The notes under the pieces were generated by a model that was given only the letters and a program-made list of their open reading frames with translations, did no database searches and was not told the origin of the DNA. Below are positions 6,459-29,562 of a stretch of 64,000 nucleotides of DNA, piece after piece. How positions within the stretch are numbered: position 1 is the stretch's first letter; the number at the start of each line of letters is the position of its first letter. The position numbers and the translations under genes are program-made. Origin of the DNA: Arthrobacter hankyongi (GTDB taxonomy: Bacteria > Actinomycetota > Actinomycetes > Actinomycetales > Micrococcaceae); assembly GCF_022012395.1 (NCBI RefSeq), contig NZ_JAKLTQ010000011.1:62001-126000 (forward strand), given 5' to 3'.

Positions 6459-7568
6459 TCAGTCGGGGCGGTAGATGTCGGCGACGGGGCAGTGGAAGGG
6501 GTCGGTGGCGGCGATGCCGACGCCGTTGAGGTAGCGCACGATCGTGGCGTAGGAGGAGATCAGGCCGGTTTCGGTGTAGGTGATGTCGTGCGTCCGGCAG
6601 TACCGGCGCACCATGGCGGCGGCTTTGCGCAGGCTGGGTCGGGGCATGTCCGGGAACAGGTGGTGTTCGGTCTGGCGGTTCAGCCCGCCCATGAGCAGGT
6701 CCATGATGATGCCGCCGCGGATGTTGCGGGACGCGGTGACCTGGCGGGTGACGAAGTCCGGCCGGGCCGACTTGGGGTAGATGGGCATGCCCTTGTGGTT
6801 GGGCGCGAAGGAGGCGCCCATGTAGAACCCGAACACGGCGATCTGGACGCCGATGAAGGCCAGGGCCAGGCCCACGGGCAGGAACAGGAAGACGACGCCG
6901 AGCAGCAGCGCGAAACGGGTAACCAGGAGCGGGATCTCAACCCAGCGGCGGTCTGCGGCCCGGTTGCGGATAAGGTACCTGACCGAATCCACGTACAGGC
7001 TGAAACCCAGGAACAGCAGCAGCGGAAACAGCAGCCAGCCCTGGACCCGGGTCACGTGGACCATCATTCCGCGCCTGCCGGCAGCTGCCTCGGGGTGGAA
7101 GGCGACGGCGCCGGTGTGGATGTCCGGGTCCTTGTCCACCTGGTTGGGGAAGCCGTGGTGCCGGGTGTGCTTGCGCACCCACATGGCGTAGCTGATGCCG
7201 ACCAGGCCGGTACCGATAAGTCTGGCCGCCCATTCATTGACCCGTTTGGAGGCGAAGACCTGCCGGTGGGCCGCTTCGTGGGCCAGGAAGCTGAACTGGG
7301 TGAACAGGATGCCCAGCACCGCGGCGATTATCAGTTGGGCCCATGTGCGGCCCAGCAGCGCGAAGCCCGTCCATGCCGAACACAGCAGCAGCATGAGCAC
7401 GCCAAACAGGGTGATGTAGTAGCCGCGCCGGCGCCGCAGCAGGCCCGCGTCGCGTATCCGGGCAGCCAGCGCCAGATATCCGGCGGCAATAGCGTTCGGC
7501 TCTTTGGAAGTCGGGGCAGGCCCGGCATGGGCATCTTCCGGACGGGATGCGGAATGGTGAGCGTCCAT
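6459..7568 (-). CDS. Membrane fatty acid desaturase
   Basis: 369 residues from the ATG at 7568. The three histidine boxes of membrane di-iron desaturases are present: HEAAH near residue 96, HTRHH near 133 and QTEHH near 298, with hydrophobic helices between the second and third boxes (LLFPLLLFLGFSLYVDSV; LLLGVVFLFLPVGLALAFIG). The enzyme family introduces a double bond into acyl chains using O2 and electrons from ferredoxin or cytochrome b5-like donors. DesA3-like actinobacterial delta-9 desaturases are the nearest type I recognise. No dedicated electron-transfer partner is adjacent. The N-terminal 40 residues are hydrophilic. Confidence 0.85.
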   Translation of the reverse strand: MDAHHSASRPEDAHAGPAPTSKEPNAIAAGYLALAARIRDAGLLRRRRGYYITLFGVLMLLLCSAWTGFALLGRTWAQLIIAAVLGILFTQFSFLAHEAAHRQVFASKRVNEWAARLIGTGLVGISYAMWVRKHTRHHGFPNQVDKDPDIHTGAVAFHPEAAAGRRGMMVHVTRVQGWLLFPLLLFLGFSLYVDSVRYLIRNRAADRRWVEIPLLVTRFALLLGVVFLFLPVGLALAFIGVQIAVFGFYMGASFAPNHKGMPIYPKSARPDFVTRQVTASRNIRGGIIMDLLMGGLNRQTEHHLFPDMPRPSLRKAAAMVRRYCRTHDITYTETGLISSYATIVRYLNGVGIAATDPFHCPVADIYRPD

Positions 7569-18093: not shown

Positions 18094-19161
18094 ATGGCGA
18101 TTATTAAGGATCCGCACCTGTTCAACGAGCAGAGCCTGTTCGTCGACCTGGAAGGGGTGCTGGGCTGGCGCCTCTACCTGAAGATCGAGGGGTTCAATTT
18201 CGCCGGCTCAATCAAGCTCAAGCCCGCGCGGGAGATGGTCGAGCGCGCCGAGCGGGAGGGGCTGATCGGCCCCGGCTCCACCCTCGTGGAGTCCTCCTCG
18301 GGCAACCTCGGCGTCGCGCTCAGCATGATCGCCGCCAGCAAGGGATACCGCTTCGTGTGTGTGATCGATCCGCGCTGCAACCCGGCAACCCGGCAACTCA
18401 TGGAGTCGCTCGGAGCACAGGTAGACCTGGTCACCGAACCGGATCCCGTCGACGGTTTCCTCGGAGCCCGGCTCAACCACGTGCGGGAACTGTGCGCGTC
18501 CGACGAGCGGTACATCTGGCTCAACCAGTACACCAATCCCGGCAACTGGGGAGCGCACTACCGCTGGACTGCCCCCGAGATCTCCAATCAGTTCCCCCAG
18601 CTGGACGTGCTATTCGTGGGAGCCGGGACAACGGGGACCTTGATGGGCTGCGCGCGGTACTTCCGTGAGCACCGGCCCGACGTCCGGATTGTCGCGGTCG
18701 ACGCCGCAGGATCGGTCTCGTTCGGCGGCCAACCGGCCACCCGCCTGATCCCGGGACTCGGCATGGGCGTGCGGCCTCCGCAGCTCGACGAGTCCTTTAT
18801 CGATGACGTGGTGATGGTCGAAGAACCGGACACGGTGCGCGCCTGCCACCGCCTCGCGGCCGCCGGCTTCATGCTCGGTGGCTCCACCGGGACCGTGGTC
18901 CACGGTGCCATGTCCTGGCTCGCCGGCCACGACGCCCAGGACCTGACGGCGGTGGCCATCTCCCCGGACATGGGCCGTCCCTACCTGGACACTGTCTACA
19001 ACCCCGACTGGGTGCACGATCATTTCGGGGCCGAAGCGCTAGCAACCGCCGATGTGACAGGGGCTCCGGGCCGACGGTCCGACCCGGTGTCGGAGCCACA
19101 GCACACAGCACCCGTGGCCGATTATGCCGCCACCGCCGCACTAGGGAGTTTCCTGCAGTGA
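18094..19161 (+). CDS. sbnA: SbnA-like N-(2-amino-2-carboxyethyl)-L-glutamate synthase
   Basis: 355 residues, a PLP-dependent cysteine-synthase-fold enzyme. The PLP lysine is in NFAGSIKLKPA (about residue 41); VESSSGNLGVALSMIAASKG binds the substrate carboxylate, VGAGTTGTLMGCARYF the phosphate. Relatives closest in arrangement, with a SbnB gene nearby, are SbnA enzymes that join O-phospho-L-serine and L-glutamate into ACEGA, the precursor of L-2,3-diaminopropionate. GAGGAAGAAC precedes the ATG. It is the first gene of the operon, and its TGA overlaps the GTG of the next gene. The C-terminal 40 residues are an extra Ala/Pro tail. Confidence 0.85.
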   Translation: MAIIKDPHLFNEQSLFVDLEGVLGWRLYLKIEGFNFAGSIKLKPAREMVERAEREGLIGPGSTLVESSSGNLGVALSMIAASKGYRFVCVIDPRCNPATRQLMESLGAQVDLVTEPDPVDGFLGARLNHVRELCASDERYIWLNQYTNPGNWGAHYRWTAPEISNQFPQLDVLFVGAGTTGTLMGCARYFREHRPDVRIVAVDAAGSVSFGGQPATRLIPGLGMGVRPPQLDESFIDDVVMVEEPDTVRACHRLAAAGFMLGGSTGTVVHGAMSWLAGHDAQDLTAVAISPDMGRPYLDTVYNPDWVHDHFGAEALATADVTGAPGRRSDPVSEPQHTAPVADYAATAALGSFLQ

Positions 19162-22100
19162 AAGTGCGCCTCGACAACCTGCAGGGCGCTCCGTGTTCCA
19201 CACCTCCCACGAATCCCCCCATTCCTGGGACAACCGCGGCTCCGGCCGGGAACGGCTCTCCAGCCACGCCGGCCACGGGTGCGGCCGTTGCCTTGGAGCG
19301 CCGGCTGGCCGATCTTCTCGCATCGGTGGTGGAGAAGGACAACGTCCCCGTGGACGCCAACTTCTTCTACGAATTGGGCGCGGACTCGCTGGTTATGGCG
19401 AAGTTCTGCGCCAGGGTGCGCAAGCAGCCGGATCTGCCCCAGGTGTCCATCAAGGACATCTACCAGAACCCAACGATCTCGGCTCTGGCCGCGGCCCTTG
19501 CACCGGCGGAAGAGGCGGCGGCGCAAGTGCAGGTGCAGGACCGGCTGGCCGAGGTGCTGTCCGGCGTGCTGGACGTCGAGCACGTGCCGGTGGATGCCAA
19601 CTTCTTCCAGGACCTGGGCGCGGACTCGCTGGTTATGGCGAAGTTCTGCGCCAGGGTGCGCAAGCAGCCGGATCTGCCCCAGGTGTCCATCAAGGACATC
19701 TACCAGAACCCAACGATCTCGGCGCTGGCCGCGGCCCTTGCACCGGCGGAAGAGGCGGCGGCGCAAGTGCAGGTGCAGGACCGGCTGGCCGAGGTGCTGT
19801 CCGGCGTGCTGGACGTCGAGCACGTGCCGGTGGATGCCAACTTCTTCCAGGACCTGGGCGCGGACTCGCTGGTCATGGCGAAGTTCTGCGCCAGGGTGCG
19901 CAAGCAGCCGGATCTGCCCCAGGTGTCCATGAAGGAGATCTACAGCAACCCGAATATCTCCGCGCTGGCAGCGGCCCTGCAGGTTCCCCCGCAGCAGGAT
20001 AAGGAGACGGAGCCCTCGCCGGCCGTCGCCTCCGTTCCGGAGATGCCGCCGCCTATGGACGCACGGACCTGGGAATATGTCGTCTGCGGCGCCCTGCAAG
20101 TGCTCGTCTACATCGGCTATTGCCTGCTCGCCGGACTCATCACGGTCGTGGGGTACCTGTGGTTGTTCCCGAACGCGGCGTCGGGTAACCACGACTGGTT
20201 GAGCCATGGCACGCCCTTCTGGGAGCTCTACTTCCGATCAATTGCCTACACCGCTGCGACGTTCGTACTGATGTGCATTCTGCCGGTGGCCGCCAAGTGG
20301 ATTTTCATTGGGCGCTTCCAGCCCAGGGAGATCCGCATCTGGAGTCTGGCCTACTTCCGGTTCTGGCTGGTCAAGGCATTGATGCGCACCTCTCCTCTCT
20401 CGCTGATGGCCGGTTCGCCGCTAACCACCTTCTACCTGAGGGCCATGGGGGCAAAGGTCGGCCGCAACGTGATGATCATGACCAATCGGCTGCCGATCTG
20501 CACCGACCTGCTGACGATCGGCGAGGGGACGGTGATCCGCAAGGACGCCCTGCTCAACGGATACCGTGCCCACGGCGGAGTCATCCAGTTGGGTGGGGTC
20601 ACGCTGGGCCGGGACGTGATCATCGGCGAGGGGAGCGTCCTGGACATCGACACGTCAATGGGTGACCGCTCGCAACTTGGCCACCGGTCCACTCTCTACA
20701 CCGGCCAAACCGTGCCCGACGGCGAGCGGTGGCACGGTTCGCCGGGCAGGCCCGGGACTGCGGACTACGCGACGGTCGAGCCGACGCCCTACCGGCCGTG
20801 GCGGCGGGGATGGTTTGCCGTGTCCCAGCTCCTAAGCACGATCGGGTTGGGCCGCACTATGTGGGGACTGGTGATCACGCTGGTCATCCTAGCGAACCCC
20901 AACATCGCGGGCCTTCTGGAGCCGAAGGAGTGGGCGTTCACCAACTGGGTCTTCTACGCGGACGCCATCGCCTACGCCGGACTGGCCGTTTTCGGTGGAA
21001 CGGTCGTGGCGTTGGTCCTCATTAGGACCCTGCCGCGGCTGCTCCAACTCGCGCTGAAGCCCGACACGGTGTATCCGCTGTTCGGGCTGCGTGACGCGGC
21101 GGCACGGGCGGTTTCCAAGATGACCAACAGTCCCATGCTCGGGGCCTTGTTCGGCGACAGTTCCTACGTAGTGAACTACGTGCGGGCGATCGGGTACCGC
21201 CAGCCGCAGGTCCAACAGACGGGCTCGAATTTCGGCACGGGGTTCAAGCACGACAACCCGTTCCTTTCGACCATCGGCACCGGCACGATGATCGCCGACG
21301 GGGTGTCATTCATGAACACCGAGTACTCGGCCACGTCGTTCAAGCTCAGTGGTGTGGCGATCGGTGCTCACAACTTCCTGGGCAACGCCGTTCTGTACCC
21401 CGCCGAAGCCAAGACCGGGGACAACTGTCTGCTCGCGACCAAGGTCATGGTCCCCGTCGACGGGCCGGTGCGCCAGGACGTGGGCCTGCTCGGATCGCCG
21501 GCGTTCGAGATCCCCCGCTCCGTGCTGCGGGACACCCTCCCCGAGGAGCAGAGGAGCCGCGCCGACCTCCGCCGGGACCTGGCGGCCAAGAACGGCCACA
21601 ACCTGCGCACCATGGCCCTCCTGATGCTGGCACGGTGGTTCAACGCCACGCTGGCCCTGCTGGTGATGTTCGCCGGCCTCGAACTGTCCGACCAATTCGG
21701 TTTCCTTGCCATCAGCGCGTCGTTCGTCGTGATGCTCGTGCTCGGCGTGCTGGTCCCCATCGGCATTCAGCACCTCGCAACAGGGTTCCGGCGGCTCCGG
21801 CCCCAGCTGTGCTCCATCTACAACCCCTACTTCTGGTGGCACGAGCGGTACTGGAAGCTGCAGGCCCAGAGCCGGTACGCGGCGCTCTTGAATGGAACCC
21901 CGTTCAAGGCACTGTTCTGGCGTCTGCTGGGTGTGCGGATCGGCTCCCGGGTCTTCGACGACGGATGCGGGATCGTCGAGCGGTCCCTGGTGACGATCGG
22001 CTCCCGCTGCACGCTGAACAACGGCACCACGATCCAGTCCCATTCCCAAGAGGACGGGATGTTTAAGTCCGACTACAACGTCATCGGAGACGACGTCACG

Positions 22101-22283
22101 CTCGGCGTCGCCGCCTTTGTCCACTACGGCGTGACCATTGAAGACGGTGCCGTTGTCACCGCCGACTCCTTCGTGATGAAGGGGACGACCCTCTCTCGGG
22201 GAACCCTGTGGGGTGGCAACCCGGCCGAAGAGGTCCGAACTGCCGCCATGTTCCCCGTCGCACTGGAAAGGCCCGGATCATGA
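19158..22283 (+). CDS. Triple-carrier-domain Pls-type membrane synthetase subunit
   Basis: 1041 residues beginning at the GTG that overlaps the sbnA stop. Residues about 45-280 contain three carrier domains, each with LGADSLVMAKFCARVRK, phosphopantetheine serines near 77, 157 and 237. From about 305 on, membrane helices (VLVYIGYCLLAGLITVVGYL and others) alternate with three left-handed beta-helix hexapeptide segments (about 427-535, 705-785, 925-1030), the C-terminal layout of Pls/PosA-type non-ribosomal peptide synthetases such as epsilon-poly-L-lysine synthetase, where it forms peptide bonds iteratively. The adenylation domain, normally fused at the N-terminus, is absent and instead encoded by the next gene; three carriers rather than one are unusual. 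No thioesterase. Confidence 0.8.
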   Translation: MKVRLDNLQGAPCSTPPTNPPIPGTTAAPAGNGSPATPATGAAVALERRLADLLASVVEKDNVPVDANFFYELGADSLVMAKFCARVRKQPDLPQVSIKDIYQNPTISALAAALAPAEEAAAQVQVQDRLAEVLSGVLDVEHVPVDANFFQDLGADSLVMAKFCARVRKQPDLPQVSIKDIYQNPTISALAAALAPAEEAAAQVQVQDRLAEVLSGVLDVEHVPVDANFFQDLGADSLVMAKFCARVRKQPDLPQVSMKEIYSNPNISALAAALQVPPQQDKETEPSPAVASVPEMPPPMDARTWEYVVCGALQVLVYIGYCLLAGLITVVGYLWLFPNAASGNHDWLSHGTPFWELYFRSIAYTAATFVLMCILPVAAKWIFIGRFQPREIRIWSLAYFRFWLVKALMRTSPLSLMAGSPLTTFYLRAMGAKVGRNVMIMTNRLPICTDLLTIGEGTVIRKDALLNGYRAHGGVIQLGGVTLGRDVIIGEGSVLDIDTSMGDRSQLGHRSTLYTGQTVPDGERWHGSPGRPGTADYATVEPTPYRPWRRGWFAVSQLLSTIGLGRTMWGLVITLVILANPNIAGLLEPKEWAFTNWVFYADAIAYAGLAVFGGTVVALVLIRTLPRLLQLALKPDTVYPLFGLRDAAARAVSKMTNSPMLGALFGDSSYVVNYVRAIGYRQPQVQQTGSNFGTGFKHDNPFLSTIGTGTMIADGVSFMNTEYSATSFKLSGVAIGAHNFLGNAVLYPAEAKTGDNCLLATKVMVPVDGPVRQDVGLLGSPAFEIPRSVLRDTLPEEQRSRADLRRDLAAKNGHNLRTMALLMLARWFNATLALLVMFAGLELSDQFGFLAISASFVVMLVLGVLVPIGIQHLATGFRRLRPQLCSIYNPYFWWHERYWKLQAQSRYAALLNGTPFKALFWRLLGVRIGSRVFDDGCGIVERSLVTIGSRCTLNNGTTIQSHSQEDGMFKSDYNVIGDDVTLGVAAFVHYGVTIEDGAVVTADSFVMKGTTLSRGTLWGGNPAEEVRTAAMFPVALERPGS
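19381..19930 (+). repeat. 240-base tandem repeat encoding carrier domains
   Basis: The segment 19381-19620 is repeated at 19621-19860 with a single base difference I can see (GGCTCTGG versus GGCGCTGG), and a partial third unit runs to about 19930 with one further change. Each unit encodes an 80-residue carrier-domain period. Such identity at synonymous sites means recent duplication or ongoing gene conversion, and copy number could vary between strains or assemblies. Confidence 0.9.
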
Positions 22284-24871
22284 CCACTACCTCTGCGCTT
22301 ACCTGCCGAACCGTTGCCGACCACTCGGGCCCGGGCGACGACCGGACTGCCCCCGCAGGTGCCGCGCCGACGGCGATTCCCAGGTGGACACAGGACCGCC
22401 AGCGGGGTCAGGGGCGGGTCGAAGTGACGGTTCCCGAGGAACTGCGCCAGGCCGTGCGGACACTGTCCCGCACGCTGGACGCGACCCCTGCGTCGATCTG
22501 GATGGCAGCTCATGCACGGGTGCTCCAGGCGCTGTCCGGTGAAACAGAGGTCACCATCGGCTGCATGGACGCGTCGGGGACCTGGCCATGCGAACTCGAT
22601 CTGGGACTAGGCTCCTGGCATGCGCTGGTCTCCGCGGCGCGCATCCGGCAGGTCCAGGCCCACGCCGAGCGGGCCGGGGGGCCGCAGGCGGGGCAGCCGC
22701 CGGCTTCCGGGACGTACGAGGTGGTACTCAGCACCCACCATGACGAGGATTCCGAGCTCGCGGAAGGCCTCGTCCTGGGAGTGTCCCTCCGCGGCGCAGC
22801 TGGCGACGCGTTGAGCCTGCGCTACCGGCGCAACGTCCTGGATGAAGGCGCAGCCCTCCGGATCGCCGGCTATCACCTCGCCGCACTCCGCCATCTGGTC
22901 GCCGAACCCGAGGCGGATCCTGCTGACGCCGACCTCGTCGGCCTGGATGAGCGGCGCTTCCAGCTCGAGCAGCTCGCCGGGCCCGAGCGGCCTCGGCCCC
23001 AACGCCGCTTCCACGAGCTGTTCGAGGAGCGGGTCCGGCAGCATCCCGAGCGCATCGCGGCGGTCCAGGACGCGCGGGAGTGGACGTACGCGGAGCTGAA
23101 CGCCCGCGCCAACCGGGTCGCCCGCGCCCTGCTCGCGCGGGGGCTGCGGGCGGAGGACATCGTGGCGGTCGTCGCCGAACGGGACCTGGAGTGGATGGCC
23201 GCCGTCATCGGCATCTTCAAGGCCGGAGGCGCGTACCTGCCGCTCGAACCGCACTTCCCAGCCGACCGAATCGCCAGAACGTTGACCCGTGCCGGGGCTC
23301 GGGTGGTGCTGAGCGAAGGCGGCAGCACCACCACGCTTGACGTGGCACTCGACGGGATGTCTGCAGTGACGAGGCTTCTGTTCGAAGACATCGAGGCCGA
23401 GGGGCACGCCGCGGACGATCTCGGCATGGACGTGCAGCCGGACCAACTCGCCTACGTCTACTTCACCTCGGGCTCCACCGGCGAACCAAAGGGCGCGATG
23501 TGCGAGCACGACGGAATGCTGAACCACCTGTACGCCAAGATCGAGGACCTGGGGATCGGCCCCGGCGACGTCGTCGCCCAGAGTGCCCCCCAATGCTTCG
23601 ACATCTCGCTGTGGCAACTGGTCTCGGCCCTGCTCGTCGGAGGCCGCACACTCATCGTGGAGCAAGACAGCATCCTCGACGTCGAGAGGTTTGTCGACAC
23701 AGTGAAACGGGGCGAAGTGGCGGTCTTCCAGGTCGTCCCGTCATACCTGGATGCAGTGGTGGCGTATCTGGACGGCAAACCCCGGGCCCTGCCGCACCTC
23801 CGCTGTGTCTCGGCGACCGGGGAGGCCCTGAAACGTGAACTGGTCCGCCGCTGGTTCGACGTGATGCCGAACGTTAAGCTGGTCAACGCCTACGGACTGA
23901 CGGAGACCTCGGACGACACGAACCACGAGGTGATGAGCGCCGCGCCTGCGGGCGGCTCGGTGCCACTGGGCCCGCCGATCCCGAACGTCCGGATCCACAT
24001 CGTCGACGAGCAGCAGCGGCTCGTGCCGCTCGGAGCGCCGGGCGAGATCGCCTTCTCCGGGGTGTGCGTGGGCCGCGGCTACATCAACGACCCGGAGCGC
24101 ACGGCACAGTCCTACTTCACCGACCCCTACGTGGCCGGTTCGCGGCTCTACCGGGCTGGCGACTACGGCCGCTGGTCCCCGGACGGCAAGCTGGAGTACA
24201 TGGGCCGGCGGGACAACCAGGTGAAGATCTCCGGGTTCCGCATCGAGATCGGCGACATCGAGAACGCGCTGTTGCGGGTTCCCGGAGTCCGCGACGGCGC
24301 CGTCGTCGTCGGCGAGAGTGCCGGGCAGTCCAAGTTCCTGGTGGCCTTCTACTCCGGCAACCGGCCCCTCGAGGTCGATGAAATCCGCAACGGGATGGCT
24401 ACGCGGGTACCAGGCTACATGGTTCCGTCGGCGTACAGGTGGCAGGAAAGCCTGCCCCTGACCGGAAACGGGAAGATCGACCGGAAGGCATTGACCCGCA
24501 TAGCGGGGGAGGTCGTTCCCGAGACCGGCGCCGCCACGGAAGCCCTTTCAGCCACTGAGCAGCGGCTCGCCGAGGCATGGGCGACGGTGCTCGGCCTACC
24601 GGCGGGCCGGATCGGCAGGCAGGACTCGTTCTTTGCACTGGGCGGGACCTCGCTGTCCGCGGTGAAGCTCGCCGTCCTGCTCAAGCGCGCGGTGTCGATC
24701 AAGGACATCATGCAGACGCCCGTCCTGGCGGATCTGGCGACCCTGCTTGAGGCCTCGTCCCTGACGGGCGCTGCCGTTCCGTCCGCCCCGCGCGCGGCGG
24801 GAGCCGCGGCGGAGCCCGACTCCATGGCCCCGGTGGGAGGGCCGGTGGCCAATCCCACCCGCTACCCATAA
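22280..24871 (+). CDS. NRPS adenylation-thiolation protein with partial condensation domain
   Basis: 863 residues from the ATG that overlaps the previous stop. Residues about 35-230 resemble the back half of a condensation domain without the HHxxxDG motif. The adenylation domain follows: LPLEPHFPADR, YFTSGSTGEPKG (about 393), FDISLWQ (about 440), NAYGLTETSDD (about 535), GRRDNQVKISGFRIE, and the lysine in LTGNGKIDRK (about 731). A thiolation domain with GGTSLS (Ser about 789) ends it. Reading the ten pocket positions by eye gives D-I-W-Q-S-T-A-D-D-K, close to diaminobutyrate-type pockets, so a short diamino acid such as diaminopropionate is the expected substrate. It presumably loads the triple-carrier partner. 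Confidence 0.85.
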   Translation: MTTTSALTCRTVADHSGPGDDRTAPAGAAPTAIPRWTQDRQRGQGRVEVTVPEELRQAVRTLSRTLDATPASIWMAAHARVLQALSGETEVTIGCMDASGTWPCELDLGLGSWHALVSAARIRQVQAHAERAGGPQAGQPPASGTYEVVLSTHHDEDSELAEGLVLGVSLRGAAGDALSLRYRRNVLDEGAALRIAGYHLAALRHLVAEPEADPADADLVGLDERRFQLEQLAGPERPRPQRRFHELFEERVRQHPERIAAVQDAREWTYAELNARANRVARALLARGLRAEDIVAVVAERDLEWMAAVIGIFKAGGAYLPLEPHFPADRIARTLTRAGARVVLSEGGSTTTLDVALDGMSAVTRLLFEDIEAEGHAADDLGMDVQPDQLAYVYFTSGSTGEPKGAMCEHDGMLNHLYAKIEDLGIGPGDVVAQSAPQCFDISLWQLVSALLVGGRTLIVEQDSILDVERFVDTVKRGEVAVFQVVPSYLDAVVAYLDGKPRALPHLRCVSATGEALKRELVRRWFDVMPNVKLVNAYGLTETSDDTNHEVMSAAPAGGSVPLGPPIPNVRIHIVDEQQRLVPLGAPGEIAFSGVCVGRGYINDPERTAQSYFTDPYVAGSRLYRAGDYGRWSPDGKLEYMGRRDNQVKISGFRIEIGDIENALLRVPGVRDGAVVVGESAGQSKFLVAFYSGNRPLEVDEIRNGMATRVPGYMVPSAYRWQESLPLTGNGKIDRKALTRIAGEVVPETGAATEALSATEQRLAEAWATVLGLPAGRIGRQDSFFALGGTSLSAVKLAVLLKRAVSIKDIMQTPVLADLATLLEASSLTGAAVPSAPRAAGAAAEPDSMAPVGGPVANPTRYP

Positions 24872-24887
24872 AACGAAAGGACCTCTG

Positions 24888-25895
24888 ATGTCGACTCCTT
24901 CACCCAGGATCCAGTTCGAAGTGGAACGCCAAGCCGGACGGGCGCCGCTGCTTGTCGTCGAGAACGGCCACGACCCCGTGCGGTGGGCCGACGAGAACCG
25001 TGAGGCGCTGCGTGCGACAGTGGATGAGCACGGCGCCGTCCTGGTCCGGGGCCTGGGCCTTCGTGATCCAGCCGAAGTGGCCAATGCCTTCCAGCGGTTG
25101 GTTCCAAGTGGCCTCATGCCGGACCGCGAGGCTTTCGCCACCAGGCAGCCCTACTTGGACGGCGTGTACTCATCCCTCACGTGGCCCGCGAACCAGCCCA
25201 TGTGCATGCACCACGAGCTTAGCTACGCGCTCGAGTTCCCCGGACTGATGCTCTTCGCCTGCCTTCAGGCACCCCGCGTCGGTGGGGTGACCGGTGTGGC
25301 GGACGCCCACGCCGTGCTCGACGCCATACCCCAGGACATCGTCCGGCGGTTCGAAAGCGAGGGGTGGCTGCTCGCCCGAAGTTACAACGAGGACATCGGT
25401 GCCACCTACGAGGAGGCGTTCGGGGTCTCCGACCGCGCCGACGTCGAGAGCTACTGCCGGGCACACGAGATCGAGTTCGAGTGGCAGCCCGACGGGGAGC
25501 TGCGCACCCGGCAACGGCGCCCTGCCGTGGTTCGGCACCCGGAGACCGGCCAACGCTGTTGGTTCAACCAGGTCGCGTTCCTGAGCGAATGGACGATCGC
25601 ACCCGAGGTGCGGGAGTACCTGCTGGACGTCTACGGTCCCGACGGGCTGCCGTTCAACACCCGCTTCGGCAACGGCGAGCCGATCGGCGAGGACATCGTC
25701 GCCCTTCTGAACGAGGTCTACGAGGCCCACACCCTTCGAACCCCCTGGGAGACGGGGGACCTCATGCTGGTCGACAACATCCGCATGGCCCACAGCCGCG
25801 AGGCGTATGAGGGACCTCGGGAGGTCCTCGTCGGTATGGCCGAGCCGCGCAACATATTCGATCTCGATACCCACACCCAGGACGGTGCACGATGA
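24888..25895 (+). CDS. TauD/SyrP-like Fe(II)/alpha-KG dioxygenase
   Basis: 335 residues, AAAGGA site before the ATG. The iron triad is visible: H107-x-E109 in MCMHHELSYA and the distal His near 301 in MAHSREAYEG; an Arg (GPREVLVGM, about 310) should bind alpha-ketoglutarate. It belongs to the TauD/TfdA clan and resembles SyrP-type enzymes, which hydroxylate amino acids while tethered to carrier domains. It could hydroxylate the Dap unit or another residue on this synthetase. Its stop overlaps the SbnB start (ATGA). Whether it acts on a free or carrier-bound substrate is unknown. Confidence 0.8.
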   Translation: MSTPSPRIQFEVERQAGRAPLLVVENGHDPVRWADENREALRATVDEHGAVLVRGLGLRDPAEVANAFQRLVPSGLMPDREAFATRQPYLDGVYSSLTWPANQPMCMHHELSYALEFPGLMLFACLQAPRVGGVTGVADAHAVLDAIPQDIVRRFESEGWLLARSYNEDIGATYEEAFGVSDRADVESYCRAHEIEFEWQPDGELRTRQRRPAVVRHPETGQRCWFNQVAFLSEWTIAPEVREYLLDVYGPDGLPFNTRFGNGEPIGEDIVALLNEVYEAHTLRTPWETGDLMLVDNIRMAHSREAYEGPREVLVGMAEPRNIFDLDTHTQDGAR

Positions 25896-26959
25896 CAGAA
25901 TTCGCCACTTCCCCAGTCGCAGCGGCCGTAGAGCCGAAGACGGTTCCACCTTTCGCGGTCATTGCAGGGGCCCAGGTACAGCAGGTGCTCCAGGGGCGGG
26001 AGAAGCAGATCGTTGAGCTGGTCGAGCAGACCTACCGGGTGCATGCAGCTGGAGACTCGGTGAACCCCCCGTCCTACTTCCTGCGCTTCCCGGACCGGCC
26101 CACCTCGCGCATCATCGCCCTGCCCGCCTCGATCGGCGGACAGGTGGACGTTGACGGCATCAAGTGGGTCTCCAGCTTCCCGGACAACGTGGCGTCGGGG
26201 ATTCCGCGCGCCTCAGCGGTGTTGATCCTCAACGACCGGGCGACGGGCTACCCCTTCGCGTGCATGGAGAGCTCCATCATCAGCGCCTCCAGGACGGCTG
26301 CATCGGCCGCCGCGGCCGCGGACTGGCTCAGCCGGGGACGCGGGCGTCCCAGACGCATCGGGTTCTTCGGCGTTGGCCTCATTGCCCGCTACATCCACAC
26401 CTTCCTGAACGCGACCGACTGGTCCTTCGACGAGATCGGGGTGTTCGACCTCTCGGGCGAGAGCGCGGAGGGTTTCAAGGGCTATCTCGAACGCAGCGGC
26501 ACCCGGGCCCGGGTGACCGTGCACGACGGCCCCGAGCAGCTGATCAGAAGCAGCGACCTCGTCGTTTTCGCCACGGTGGCGAGCCGGCCGCACGTGTCCG
26601 ACACGACGTGGTTCGCGCACAACCCGCTGGTGCTGCACGTGTCCCTGCGCGACCTGGCCCCGGAGATTCTGCTGGCGTCGACCAACATCCTCGACGACGT
26701 CGACCACTGCTTGAAAGCCGGGACGTCGGCCCACCTCGCGGAGCAGATGGTCGGCCACCGGGACTTCGTGGACGGCACCTTGGCCGACGTCATGGAAGGC
26801 AAGGTCTCGCCGTCGGACGACCGCCCCATCGTGTTCTCGCCATTCGGCCTGGGCGTGCTCGACCTGGCAGTGGGCAAGTACGTCTACGACGAACTTGCCA
26901 GCAGCGGCCAGCTCCGGGTGGTCGAGGACTTCTTTTCCGAGTTGCGTCGGTACGGCTAA
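25892..26959 (+). CDS. sbnB: SbnB-like diaminopropionate synthase (ACEGA dehydrogenase)
   Basis: 355 residues of the ornithine cyclodeaminase/mu-crystallin family: PTSRIIALPASIGG, GIKWVSSFPDNV (the SbnB-type substrate loop), and the NAD-binding GFFGVGLIARYIHTF near residue 156; the end reads SPFGLGVLDLAVGKYVYDEL. SbnB oxidises ACEGA with NAD+, giving L-2,3-diaminopropionate plus alpha-ketoglutarate. Together with the SbnA-like enzyme this supplies Dap to the synthetase. It is translationally coupled to the dioxygenase upstream. Confidence 0.85.
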   Translation: MTEFATSPVAAAVEPKTVPPFAVIAGAQVQQVLQGREKQIVELVEQTYRVHAAGDSVNPPSYFLRFPDRPTSRIIALPASIGGQVDVDGIKWVSSFPDNVASGIPRASAVLILNDRATGYPFACMESSIISASRTAASAAAAADWLSRGRGRPRRIGFFGVGLIARYIHTFLNATDWSFDEIGVFDLSGESAEGFKGYLERSGTRARVTVHDGPEQLIRSSDLVVFATVASRPHVSDTTWFAHNPLVLHVSLRDLAPEILLASTNILDDVDHCLKAGTSAHLAEQMVGHRDFVDGTLADVMEGKVSPSDDRPIVFSPFGLGVLDLAVGKYVYDELASSGQLRVVEDFFSELRRYG

Positions 26960-27013
26960 CCCTGTGCGGCGCCAACCGCATTCATCGATTCGCACCCACC
27001 GAGGAGTGACACA

Positions 27014-28156
27014 ATGTTCTCGTTACCGCAGATGCTGGGGAATGTGTCCAAGGCCTACGTCCAGTCGCCTGATGACTGGGCGCGGTCGGTCACAGACGTC
27101 CTGCGGGACGCCGCGATCTACCACCAGGCCGGAAACGGCTTCTACCGCGCCCAGTGTGACGCGTTGGGAGTCGATCCCGCCGCGATCAACGACATCAACG
27201 ACCTGCAAGACCTGCCCTTGTTGCCGGTCGGCATGTTCAAGCGTCCCGACGCCCAGGTGCTGCTCACCTGCTCCCTGGCCGACGTCGAGACCGAAACCCG
27301 CTCCAGCGGAACCCGCGGTGCCCCCTCCGTCGCCCCCCGCAACAGCGAGACATTGACCCTGGCGCTGATCGGCCTGATCGGGACCTACCGGGAGTTCTTC
27401 AGCCTGTCCGGGGGCGCGGGACTTTTCTTGAACCCGTCGGACCCCGAAGCCTCGGAGATGGGACTGCTCAAGGACTTGAACATCCTGAACAGCGTCTTCG
27501 ACCACCACGCATACCTTGTTGCCGACCAGGCGTTCGACGTCAGCGAGGCCCTGGAGCACCTGCGCCGGTGGAAGGGCCACATGACCCGGCACATCGTCGG
27601 TCCGCCGTTCCTCATCGGCCGACTCCTCCGGTTCGTCGAACGGGAGAAGATCAATGTGCACTTGGACCCGTACAGCATGATCATTACTCTCGGCGGGTGG
27701 AAGCGGTACACGGCCGAGGCCATCCCTGACGAAGGCTTTCGGGAGCGGTGCCACGACTTGCTCGGCGTGCGCACGGAGAACGTGCGCGACATGTACGGGC
27801 TGATCGAGTCGAACATGCTCGCTGTCGAATGCCACCTGCATCGCAAGCACGTTCCGCCGTGGTGCTACATCTCCATCCGGGACCCTGGTCAGAGCGGCAT
27901 GGAGCTCGCCCCGGGGGAGACCGGCACCATCGCCGTACTGGACGCCCTCAGCACCAGCTACCCCGGTTTCCTCCTCACCGACGACATGGGCGACGTCGAG
28001 ACGGGCACCTGCGGGTGCGGCAGAACCGGCCAGGTCATCAACTTCCGCGGCCGGGGGCACGGCGGCGGGCTTGGCCACTGTCCCGTCAGCATCGAGCGCT
28101 ACCTCGGTTCGGCCACCACCACCAACGATGAGGCGCCGGCTCTCGTGAAGGCCTGA
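27014..28156 (+). CDS. LuxE-like acyl-protein synthetase
   Basis: 380 residues of the ANL superfamily, LuxE/PaaK type. Seen: DLPLLPVGMFKRPD, the nucleotide-binding RSSGTRGAPS (about 96-105), ITLGGWKRYT, YGLIESNMLAVECH and SYPGFLLTDDMGDV, then a Cys-rich turn (GTCGCGRTG). LuxE in luminous bacteria activates a fatty acid as acyl-AMP and holds it on a cysteine for reduction; related PaaK-like enzymes activate aromatic acids. As the last gene of the Dap operon it may attach an acyl or aryl group to a carrier or the product, or start the chain. No LuxC-type reductase is present. GAGGAGTGA site upstream of ATG. Confidence 0.75.
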   Translation: MFSLPQMLGNVSKAYVQSPDDWARSVTDVLRDAAIYHQAGNGFYRAQCDALGVDPAAINDINDLQDLPLLPVGMFKRPDAQVLLTCSLADVETETRSSGTRGAPSVAPRNSETLTLALIGLIGTYREFFSLSGGAGLFLNPSDPEASEMGLLKDLNILNSVFDHHAYLVADQAFDVSEALEHLRRWKGHMTRHIVGPPFLIGRLLRFVEREKINVHLDPYSMIITLGGWKRYTAEAIPDEGFRERCHDLLGVRTENVRDMYGLIESNMLAVECHLHRKHVPPWCYISIRDPGQSGMELAPGETGTIAVLDALSTSYPGFLLTDDMGDVETGTCGCGRTGQVINFRGRGHGGGLGHCPVSIERYLGSATTTNDEAPALVKA

Positions 28157-28168
28157 GTTCGCTGCGGC

Positions 28169-29257
28169 TCAGCCGGCGCCCTCTTCTGTTGCCGCGCCCT
28201 GGGCGAGGCCGCCCTCGATGCCGCCGAGTGAGACCGTCGCGCTCATGAGCGTTTCGGTCATCTGCTCCAGTACGGCCATGTCGACGTTCTGGATGGTGTC
28301 GCAGGCCCGGTGGTAGCACTCGTCGTACTGCTCCCCGGCCTGCCCGCCGAAGGTGCGCGCCTCGGCCTCGCTCTTGGTCCCCGCGTCGCCGGTGAACAGG
28401 CCCCCGGCCGGGATGCCGGCCTTCACGAACGCGTCGTAGTCCGAATCCCCGATGAACCCGAACGGCAGCGTCTGGACCCCCTCGGCCCGCAGGATGTCCT
28501 GGAACACCCGTTCGATGGCGCCAGACCCCTCGGGCCCGGCCTCCTTGCTGTCCGAGCCGTCGCCGTCGTACACGAAGGCCACCGCGTTCGGTGAGCCCAC
28601 CACGTCGACGTTCAAGTACGCGACGTGCGAGGCGGCCTCCTCGCGGGAGAGTTGCTCGACGTAGTATTCCGAGCCGTGCATTCCGTCCTCCTCGCCGCCC
28701 CAGAACGCGAACCGGATCCGCTCCCGCGACACGGCGCCCTCCTCCGCGAGCCGCAGCGCGACCTCGAGCACCGCGGCGACCCCGCTGCCGTTGTCGTTGA
28801 GCCCGGGTCCCTCCTCGACCGAGTCCAGGTGCGCGCCGAGTACCAGCATGCCGCCGGTGCCACTGCCGGTGTCGGTCAGGATGTTGAACGCGTCCACGGG
28901 GTTGCGCCGGCCGTAGCTGAACTCCTGCCGCCGCGGCTTGTACCCCGCCGCACGCAACTGCTCCTCAACGTACGCCGCGGACGCCTCGTAGCCCCTGGTG
29001 GCGTCGGCCCGGTTCCCACCATTCGCGTCCGCCGCCGCCTGCAACGCCTTCAGGTGCCGGGTCAGCGCACTGGGCTCCACTACTTCCTGCACGAATGAAG
29101 GGTCCGGCGGGGCCTCCACCCTCACAGGCGGCCGTGGCTCGCCAGAACATGCGGCAACACCGCCGGCCAGTGCCGCGCACAGCGCAACGGTCCACAGCCG
29201 GGTGCGGTGATGAGGATGGTTGTGGAAACGCTGGGGAACGGATTCTGCACGTCGCAT
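28169..29257 (-). CDS. M28-family metallopeptidase, lipoprotein
   Basis: 362 residues from ATG 29257 with a GGAGAAACC site. The N-terminus is a lipoprotein signal (LWTVALCAALAGGVAAC; lipobox G-V-A-A-C), so the enzyme is anchored outside the membrane. Zinc ligands of the M28 fold are visible: VLGAHLDSV (His/Asp), LNDNGSG (Asp), FWGGEEDGMHG (Glu-Glu) and CYHRACDT (His). Family members are aminopeptidases. It converges on the biosynthetic operon with 12 bases between stops. It could trim or degrade extracellular peptides, conceivably including the cluster product, but nothing shows that. Confidence 0.85.
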   Translation of the reverse strand: MRRAESVPQRFHNHPHHRTRLWTVALCAALAGGVAACSGEPRPPVRVEAPPDPSFVQEVVEPSALTRHLKALQAAADANGGNRADATRGYEASAAYVEEQLRAAGYKPRRQEFSYGRRNPVDAFNILTDTGSGTGGMLVLGAHLDSVEEGPGLNDNGSGVAAVLEVALRLAEEGAVSRERIRFAFWGGEEDGMHGSEYYVEQLSREEAASHVAYLNVDVVGSPNAVAFVYDGDGSDSKEAGPEGSGAIERVFQDILRAEGVQTLPFGFIGDSDYDAFVKAGIPAGGLFTGDAGTKSEAEARTFGGQAGEQYDECYHRACDTIQNVDMAVLEQMTETLMSATVSLGGIEGGLAQGAATEEGAG

Positions 29258-29562
29258 GTGGTTTCTCCCCAAGTCTGCGTCCTGGTCGCTGGTGGCAAAT
29301 ACTACACTTCGGCGGTCCGCCAGAAACAAGCTGCAGCCCACAGCGGCGGTAACCATCGTCTTTCGAACCGTTGCGGAACACCGGCGGCGCACCGGGTGTG
29401 CGCCAACGCCGCGGCCATGTCCATCCATCATGCCCTCCGTGTCGCTTGCGATCCTTGGACGGCCTACACTACGGAAACGTCGCCGGACGTTAGATTGGTT
29501 CCACATAAGTGTTTGCTGTGTTTCATCGCTTTCGCAGACATCGGTCCGAGGCATCCTTGCCC

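Follow-up and report, generated by a model that had tools for sequence, protein, structure and literature searches.

Gene content of the locus

The window analysed here is a 64,000-nucleotide stretch of the Arthrobacter hankyongi genome (contig NZ_JAKLTQ010000011.1). Open reading frame calls and family profile searches place a predicted operon of six + strand genes at positions 18094-28156, encoding SbnA, a Pls protein lacking an adenylation (A) domain, a protein combining an A domain with a carrier (T) domain, a TauD dioxygenase, SbnB and LuxE. All six reading frames lie on the strand and at the positions given in the first-pass annotation, and the overlaps it described are real (GTGA at 19158-19161, ATGA at 22280-22283 and ATGA at 25892-25895). 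Its SbnA, SbnB, three-carrier Pls-type, A-T and LuxE-like calls are backed by profile matches. The features are as follows:

18094..19161, +, SbnA-type PLP enzyme, step 1 of L-2,3-diaminopropionate (Dap) synthesis (TIGR03945, 394 bits, cut-off 350)
19158..22283, +, A-less Pls with three T domains and TIGR02353 membrane core (three PP-binding stretches; TIGR02353, 660 bits)
19293..19514, +, T domain 1 of the Pls protein (LGADSL)
19530..19754, +, T domain 2 of the Pls protein (LGADSL)
19770..19991, +, T domain 3 of the Pls protein (LGADSL)
20082..22226, +, Pls/PosA core (TIGR02353, residues 309-1023)
22280..24871, +, A-T protein (AMP-binding and PP-binding) carrying half a condensation domain at its N terminus
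22415..22954, +, C-terminal lobe of a condensation (C) domain, without HHxxxDG (hhalign, Foldseek)
22994..24517, +, adenylation domain, code DIWQSTADDK
24551..24760, +, the A-T protein's own T domain (LGGTSL)
24888..25895, +, TauD-family Fe(II)/2-oxoglutarate dioxygenase (TauD, 160 bits)
25892..26959, +, SbnB-type dehydrogenase, step 2 of Dap synthesis (TIGR03944, 422 bits, cut-off 327)
27014..28156, +, LuxE-family acyl-adenylating ligase (PF04443, 116 bits)
28169..29554, -, M28 peptidase, putative lipoprotein, its true start probably at about 29257 (PF04389, 145 bits)

The cut-offs of both equivalog models for Dap biosynthesis by SbnA and SbnB are thus exceeded. The 1041-residue Pls protein scores 660.5 bits against the Pls/PosA model TIGR02353, for which the cut-off is 423.1. 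It differs from the layout of that class, in which an A domain and one T domain are fused N-terminally, in that it has three T domains and no A domain was found in it. In published descriptions, a Pls core combines membrane segments with three beta-helix domains of acetyltransferase-like type, and profile searches detect hexapeptide (acetyltransferase-type) stretches in the core encoded here. By Pfam, the synthetase is free of condensation and thioesterase domains, as in the Pls/PosA class, and no match to Pfam Condensation occurs anywhere in the genome at E <= 0.001. The host genome has two A-less Pls genes but one A-T gene.

The A-T protein probably starts at the ATG at 22280, which overlaps the preceding stop, rather than with the longer GTG reading frame. 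Absent from its first-pass description is an N-terminal half condensation domain, which hhalign matches (94.9%, E 4.4e-8) to columns 227-431 of a 436-column template of three C domains; C-A didomains are the best Foldseek matches of the protein. HHxxxDG occurs in none of the 24 aligned A-T rows. Judged from its sequence, the half domain is catalytically dead, and it is probably a docking element. Because the A domain sits behind this dead half domain, it did not break off a Pls; it resembles that of a C-A-T type nonribosomal peptide synthetase (NRPS), not a relocated Pls A domain.

The dioxygenase gene adjoins the A-T gene. TauD is the family shown, and the His-X-Asp/Glu...His pattern of SyrP-like hydroxylases is present. 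H108, E110 and H302, the predicted metal ligands, are invariant in all 23 aligned rows, and the structure model (pLDDT 84.7) has 1y0z as its best Foldseek match (E 9.6e-25). The LuxE gene exceeds the Pfam LuxE cut-off, and its NCBIfam LuxE score of 130 bits is far below the cut-off of 550. A siderophore reading was set aside, as no transporter or receptor family occurs among the 17 window reading frames scanned, five of which have no family match.

Conservation and origin of the split arrangement

Loci were collected in two ways. In one genome scan, 49 loci were picked by exact peptide patterns and are close relatives only, so the share with the split arrangement, 29 of 50 loci, says nothing about its frequency; in one of the 29, the Pls retains a truncated A domain. 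The second set comprises the best 20 dioxygenase regions after the window's genome and G017, drawn from dioxygenase matches at E <= 1e-40 in 48 of 394 genomes of the class, and 14 of these 20 are split. The A domain on a separate polypeptide, as first proposed, is therefore borne out: the split is kept in many species, with an invariant adenylation code. The gene set recurs widely among soil bacteria.

Among fully flanked split loci, SbnA is present in 20/20 and SbnB in 19/20; one locus (L043) has neither SbnB nor TauD within reach. The A-T/TauD/SbnB/SbnA set also occurs beside condensation-domain NRPS genes (L101 and L102), so that the set alone does not mean a polymer. In L098, the 20 kb examined contain the set but no Pls core. 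Clustering of reading frames, which misses some neighbours, gave no further gene common to most split loci. A targeted search beyond the clustering detected a Dab-transaminase (Dab, 2,4-diaminobutyrate) relative in L050 and an acyltransferase relative in L066.

The LuxE gene was first thought to be a part that defines the system. It is present in 9 of the 20 fully flanked split loci, absent from the other 11 and found in 0/20 loci of the second set, which rules it out as a core component. A thioesterase-like C-terminus is found on the A-T protein in L032, L033, L038 and L040 (Pfam was run on L032 alone) and in 6 of the 20 second-set loci (L085, L088, L090, L091, L093 and L098). Such fusions suggest the release of something held on the T domain of that protein, a step for which a plain polymer would have no need. 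LuxE, the thioesterase, the M28 peptidase and a membrane acyltransferase are best read as lineage-specific additions.

The triple carrier is not a defining trait either, as had been supposed, since A-less Pls relatives carry one to four T domains. With the code unchanged across this range, the carriers do not seem to count residues. Two further features of the T domains were considered and dropped. The GADS motif comes in 94 of 99 T domains first counted, but reads GANS in 8 of 14 second-set proteins, and so does not mark the split type or trans loading. Homogenised T repeats are not general, the repeats being no more alike within proteins than between them (0.74 versus 0.82).

Decayed Pls A domains are seen in two loci: in L036, inside the split cluster, the domain ends after the A5 motif, and in L033 a damaged domain lies beside the split set. 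A single branch parts fused from split forms in the core tree, with support of 98/96 (53 rows) and of 79/97 in a 56-row tree from which eleven Arthrobacter rows were dropped beforehand and for which the bootstrap had not fully settled. For both trees L053 (a fragment) and L049 (a probable frameshift), neither with an A domain in the same reading frame, were counted as fused forms. L049 was rejected as a second split, its A domain and T-core lying in frames that overlap, the pattern expected of a frameshift. In the 56-row tree L036 branches from within the A-less rows, so complete loss of the A domain may have occurred more than once. Gene distances correlate (r 0.77-0.95; 0/999 permutations as high).

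Adenylation code and predicted substrate

The pocket code DIWQSTADDK is identical at all ten positions in 24/24 aligned A-T rows and in 18/18 further relatives. A separate reading recovered the full code in 27 of 29 A-T rows, L026 and L056 being cut off; L019 and L069 are the same sequence, and the L034, L035 and L043 rows fall outside this reading and inside the 24-row alignment. A literature search for the code string gave no match. Eight of ten positions are shared with DIWELTADDK, the code of an A domain in an NRPS on a Streptomyces plasmid (L072), standing directly before genes annotated sbnA/sbnB. DIWQSTADDK and DIWQATCDDK codes also adjoin other PALP-type enzymes. The A-T protein has a strong NCBIfam match to SolG, whose substrate was predicted as serine by its authors (available text of PMC10204066 and PMC9765074), and SulM-A3 is given as a Dap-activating domain in the accessible part of PMC11298585. 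The code of the PDAP synthetase has Phe at position 2 and a class-conserved Glu at position 3 (PMC10522769, in the portion available), unlike the Ile and Trp found here. The substrate is predicted to be a short diamino acid, with Dap a strong favourite.

The same machinery could use Dab as its monomer instead. The nine positions seen of PvdL-A3, a Dab-activating domain, read DIWELTADD, seven of them as in the A-T code, and one split locus (L030) contains a 94-residue piece of a Dab-transaminase-like gene together with pieces of another Pls. With two Dab-transaminase queries, however, no split locus besides L030 scored above 70 bits; SbnA and SbnB are near-constant companions in fully flanked split loci, and DIWELTADDK itself precedes sbnA/sbnB in L072. 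Dab is an improbable monomer, the least probable of the alternatives weighed here. Six fused Pls loci have DFEC codes, and a Dab-transaminase relative lies near five of them, so a precursor gene nearby tends to go with the code in the Pls family.

Proposed pathway and alternatives

There is an even chance, in our judgement, that the locus encodes a split, Pls-type synthetase making an oxidised, Dap-based isopeptide. SbnA and SbnB would supply L-2,3-diaminopropionate. The separate A domain would activate it and charge both the T domain on the same polypeptide and, acting in trans, the T domains of the A-less Pls, which number one to four. The dioxygenase would oxidise Dap while it is bound to a carrier, most probably the one on the A-T protein, and the membrane-bound Pls core would join residues iteratively through the beta-amine, without condensation domains, so that an extracellular oligomer or polymer would result. 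That Dap is joined repeatedly is predicted from the Pls core alone; trans loading, oxidation and the product are likewise inferred. Of the originally proposed Dap polymerase with a split A domain, the separate A polypeptide and a short diamino acid substrate are retained; the triple carrier and LuxE as defining parts are not.

It may be, more tentatively, that the Dap-specific A-T protein with its dead C half, the dioxygenase, SbnB and SbnA form a plug-in cassette that hands oxidised Dap on to one of two partners: classical NRPSs, or an A-less Pls, whose product would be the first oxidised isopeptide polyamino acid. The product class would then be widespread, and the polymerase would seem to derive from a Dab-type Pls that lost its A domain and came to be fed in trans, a change of monomer with an unchanged polymerase.

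A less likely product, although a serious candidate, is not a polymer but a small molecule or a Dap peptide that is short and defined. Here the Pls core would couple the oxidised Dap unit to a partner in one or a few rounds, with a thioesterase or LuxE completing the product, as the thioesterase-like A-T C-termini in several loci and the same cassette beside multi-module NRPSs might lead one to expect. However, in the available text of PMC4668381, PMC10522769 and PMC8117764 the Pls/PosA core is described in homopolymer synthetases only. Carrier number also varies from one to four under an unchanged code. Distinctly improbable is a third arrangement, in which the product of the A-T protein, the dioxygenase and the thioesterase (or LuxE) would be a free modified amino acid, for the Pls core to couple to a cell-surface sugar, lipid or protein. 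Sets of an A-T-thioesterase protein and an oxygenase elsewhere do release modified amino acids, and the Pls core has hexapeptide (acetyltransferase-type) stretches, but the DFEC fused relatives beside Dab-transaminase relatives look like ordinary homopolymer synthetases, and the clustering gave no additional shared gene.

Pls-type enzymes link copies of a single amino acid to make antimicrobial polymers found in nature. Known natural polymers of diamino acids with isopeptide bonds are few. Poly-Dap is already known from Streptomyces albulus PD-1, where SbnA/B-like enzymes serve a fused Pls. As far as the accessible text goes, that system resembles the predicted oxidised-isopeptide system in its Pls core, its lack of C or thioesterase domains and its supply of Dap by cysteine-synthase-like and ornithine-cyclodeaminase-like enzymes; it differs in that A, T and core form one protein, the Dap genes are located elsewhere and no dioxygenase is described, in contrast to the TauD gene here (PMC4668381). 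The epsilon-PL synthetase Pls, PosA and the gamma-poly-Dab synthetases share the Pls core and an adjoining peptidase or dat gene (PMC8117764, in part). They are unlike the locus described here in having a fused A-T and one carrier. The A domain of ORF19 (streptothricin) is likewise its own polypeptide and serves a diamino acid isopeptide oligomer (beta-lysine), and no Pls core is known in that system. The joining of the residues, which takes place on a carrier protein, is done by ORF19 itself (PMC9606270, available text).

A Kitasatospora plasmid NRPS (L070) has adjacent A-T (57% identical) and TauD (50% identical) genes, but a C-T protein comes next, no Pls core lies in 30 kb, and a PALP fused to ATP-grasp replaces SbnA/SbnB. 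The dapdiamide system has Dap genes and an A-T protein, with its bonds made by ATP-grasp ligases. In dapdiamide/SyrP-type systems a nonheme iron dioxygenase acts on a carrier-tethered substrate (accessible part of PMC12451424), as is predicted here. No Pls core is known in those systems.

Pls-type synthetases in the literature carry their own A domain (PMC4668381, PMC10522769 and PMC8117764, as available). Here, and across many actinobacteria, the part that loads the monomer is encoded apart from the core and next to an oxygenase. If the A-T protein works in trans, a Pls core could be supplied by exchangeable A-T proteins; its monomer choice and joining would become testable in vitro, and a route to new cationic polymers would open.

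The M28 peptidase is a possible product-degrading or self-protection enzyme. Its family lies near seven distinct split-type loci including the window (L027 being rearranged), with 53-89% identity in the six others, and follows the fused Pls of L066, where identity to the window's M28 is 42%.

Genes of the cluster and its surroundings

All six plus-strand open reading frames (ORFs) of the cluster at 18094-28156, together with the overlaps claimed in the first-pass annotation, are present at their claimed positions in the window, and family searches identify them and their neighbors as follows.

ORF 1, + strand: SbnA (NCBIfam, 394 bits, cut-off 350)
ORF 2, + strand: Pls/PosA NRPS (NCBIfam, 660 bits, cut-off 423) with three PP-binding stretches (Pfam)
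ORF 3, + strand: AMP-binding and PP-binding (Pfam), the adenylation-carrier (A-T) protein
ORF 4, + strand: TauD dioxygenase (Pfam)
ORF 5, + strand: SbnB (NCBIfam, 422 bits, cut-off 327)
ORF 6, + strand: LuxE (Pfam)
Downstream of the cluster, opposite strand: M28 peptidase
Flanking ORFs (matches in 5 of 10 scanned): pyridine nucleotide-disulphide oxidoreductase, glyoxalase type, aldo/keto reductase, NAD(P)H-binding protein, acyltransferase

ATG 22280, which overlaps the stop codon of the preceding gene, is the probable start of the A-T protein. Across the window's own genome there are no matches to Condensation, and one gene of the cluster's A-T type is present versus two genes for Pls lacking an A domain (A-less). 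Exactly one A-T gene was likewise found in 10 of 10 genomes of the genus (E <= 1e-150). One of the genomes of this genus (G006) has a row in the 53-row Pls tree that is identical to the row of A. crystallopoietes BAB-32, and the genus is accordingly taken as Arthrobacter, broadly defined. The second A-less Pls of the window's genome, also with three carriers (L062:9918-13004, in the genome C29:14956-17994; 75% identical), is an orphan without an adjoining A-T gene, and orphans of similar kind occur in loci L015, L022, L042, L060 and L067. The lone A-T protein encoded in the genome may load these orphans.

Distribution of the split gene set

The cluster is a genuine split version of a familiar synthetase type, and this version is widespread. 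When the 1041-aa Pls was run against the species-genome collection, 49 loci emerged (50 counting the window), and the proposed division into an A-less Pls and a separate A-T protein is borne out in 29 of the 50, including one (L036) with a truncated Pls A domain; hosts include Kocuria, Geodermatophilus, Blastococcus and Pseudonocardia. Twenty of the 29 are well flanked, with no less than 6 kb on the upstream side and about 10 kb on the downstream side. All 20 contain SbnA, and 19 each contain the dioxygenase and SbnB, both being missing from L043.

When the dioxygenase served as query against 394 genomes of the class, 48 gave a match at E <= 1e-40. The best 20 regions among these, with the window's genome and G017 set aside, form a second set, 18 of them supplied by a single genus. 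Fourteen (L085-L097 and L099) encode A-less Pls, A-T protein, dioxygenase and SbnB, and 13 of these also SbnA; the contig of L097 ends too early. L098 has A-T-thioesterase (A-T-TE), dioxygenase, SbnB and SbnA, with no Pls core within 20 kb. No Pls core accompanies the A-T protein and dioxygenase of L100-L102; in L101 and L102 there are also SbnA/SbnB and adjoining NRPS genes with condensation (C) domains. In L103 and L104, a 45-46% identical dioxygenase lies amid NRPS genes, with no A-T protein carrying the DIWQSTADDK pocket code. At L101:7449-19901, the set adjoins an NRPS that contains methyltransferase domains. This locus is a candidate source of an already known peptide, which would show the product of the dioxygenase.

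Across 20 loci, the distances obtained for SbnA, Pls, A-T, dioxygenase and SbnB are correlated with one another (r 0.77-0.95), and 0 of 999 permutations reached the observed correlation for any of the 10 gene pairs. This is as for one inherited unit; shared host descent would also produce it. The arrangement in L027 (Arthrobacter ipis) is disrupted, with broken Pls pieces flanking an SbnA end, LuxE cut, and A-T, dioxygenase and SbnB missing from their usual positions.

Two features that the first-pass annotation treated as the essence of the system, LuxE and the triple carrier, are instead lineage-specific. LuxE occurs in 9 of the 20 well-flanked loci, all from Arthrobacter, Pseudarthrobacter or Citricoccus, and neither it nor the M28 gene was found within reach of the stretch in any of the 20 second-set regions. 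A-less Pls proteins of the first scan have 1, 2, 3 or 4 T domains, and 13 of the 14 in the second set have one. Because this number varies while code and partners stay unchanged, it most likely reflects capacity rather than length of product. Among the open PMC papers that the searches turned up, no title or abstract opening describes a multi-carrier, A-less Pls whose A-T partner is a protein of its own.

Origin of the split

The A-T protein was probably derived from a C-A-T module, since the window's A domain is mostly only 28-34% identical to the Pls A domains of these loci, half a C domain precedes it (the C-terminal lobe, template columns 227-431 of 436, 94.9% by hhalign), and the best structural matches of its AlphaFold2 model (pLDDT 80.9) are the C-A didomains of Txo2 and PvdL. 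The condensation motif HHxxxDG is absent from all 24 rows.

A single change from fused to split is favored. Fused and split-type cores lie on opposite sides of one branch in a 53-row tree (98/96) and in a 56-row tree (79/97, 82% of the bootstrap trees showing a single change). The direction is based on the existence of fused forms in other phyla and from decayed A domains: that of L036, in a split cluster, stops soon past the A5 motif and leads directly into T, and a Pls at L033:4862-9493, directly upstream of a complete split cluster, has an A domain damaged in the P-loop and C-terminal part. L036 falls within the A-less rows of the 56-row tree, so the final traces of the A domain may have disappeared on more than one occasion. 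An archaeal Pls (L049:8269-12448, Nitrosocosmicus MAG) is probably a frameshift rather than a true split, its A part and T-core part lying in overlapping frames.

Substrate, proposed mechanism and accessory genes

With pocket positions assigned by a GrsA sequence, the window's A-T code reads D-I-W-Q-S-T-A-D-D-K. It is invariant in 24 of 24 aligned A-T rows, 55 to 93% identical to the window's, and likewise in 18 of 18 relatives from the second set. The nearest PDB relatives of the region are entry 9n1u, LgrA and PvdL, and in the alignment PvdL-A3, the 2,4-diaminobutyrate (Dab) domain of pyoverdine, reads DIWELTADD. Three relatives came from plasmid records: a 57% identical Kitasatospora A-T protein (L070, DIWQATCDDK), after which comes a dioxygenase sharing 50% identity with the window's; a Streptomyces A-T-TE (L071, DIWQSTADDK) adjoining a PALP enzyme, lyase and kinase; and a Streptomyces domain (L072, DIWELTADDK) immediately upstream of annotated sbnA and sbnB. 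The code thus supports a short diamino acid well, and the Sbn genes make 2,3-diaminopropionate (Dap), the substrate originally proposed, the likely one. The PALP enzyme, argininosuccinate-lyase-like lyase and kinase at L071:7738-16064 and L070:18471-23168 look like another Dap route, from phosphoserine and aspartate with release of fumarate.

Among the fused Pls of these scans, whose codes differ from this one, six (L050, L051, L052, L063, L065 and L066) have DFEC codes, and a Dab-transaminase relative lies within the stretch in all but L063, confirmed by NCBIfam in the three tested (L051, L052 and L066); code and neighboring precursor gene therefore tend to go together in the Pls family. The split locus L030 (Pseudarthrobacter oxydans) complicates the picture, holding a 94-residue piece, 78% identical to the L066 transaminase, and pieces of a second Pls. 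These pieces (6758-7438 and 19515-19796) flank a complete split cluster on both sides and may be what is left of a Dab (poly-Dab) system once located there. At the edge of the L066 stretch, a Pls-type A-T protein with a DAES code lies near the DFEC Pls, whose other neighbors are the Dab transaminase, an M28 peptidase and a gene resembling acyltransferases. The genome also has a split set, and the species perhaps has three isopeptide systems.

In the proposed mechanism, SbnA/SbnB would make Dap by known chemistry, and the A-T protein would load the Pls carriers in trans, since the searches showed no further A domain conserved alongside those carriers. The Pls core, a type that links diamino acids held on T domains and needs neither C nor TE domains for this (PMC4668381, PMC10522769), would work iteratively. 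The dioxygenase may act on carrier-bound Dap, given that the L070 dioxygenase follows an A-T protein of the same type. If the enzyme hydroxylates the beta-carbon, an N-acyl hemiaminal would result after incorporation of the beta-amine into an isopeptide bond; desaturation would be the alternative. The expected metal ligands of the dioxygenase, H108, E110 and H302, are invariant in 23 of 23 rows, and its nearest solved fold is At3g21360.

A TE is fused to the A-T protein in some species, which argues that something is released from its carrier, perhaps an oxidised monomer that could serve as chain starter. In the Arthrobacter group, LuxE may activate a carboxylate serving as a cap for the chain. 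Seven distinct split-type loci (L014, L019, L023, L027, L028, L030 and the window) have an M28 peptidase nearby, on either side of the set and, in the six others, 53-89% identical to the window's; that downstream of the fused Pls in L066 is 42% identical. A degrading or protective role is possible by analogy with the Streptomyces pls operon, whose peptidase degrades the polymer and is thought to protect the host (PMC8117764). Related membrane proteins, 35-50% identical to that of L036, occur near split or fused Pls in L019, L025, L029, L036, L063, L066, L095 and L096. The L025 protein has no Pfam match at 1e-8, and those of L036 and L063 are HGSNAT-type acyltransferases (Pfam); it is possible that these proteins acylate or export the product.
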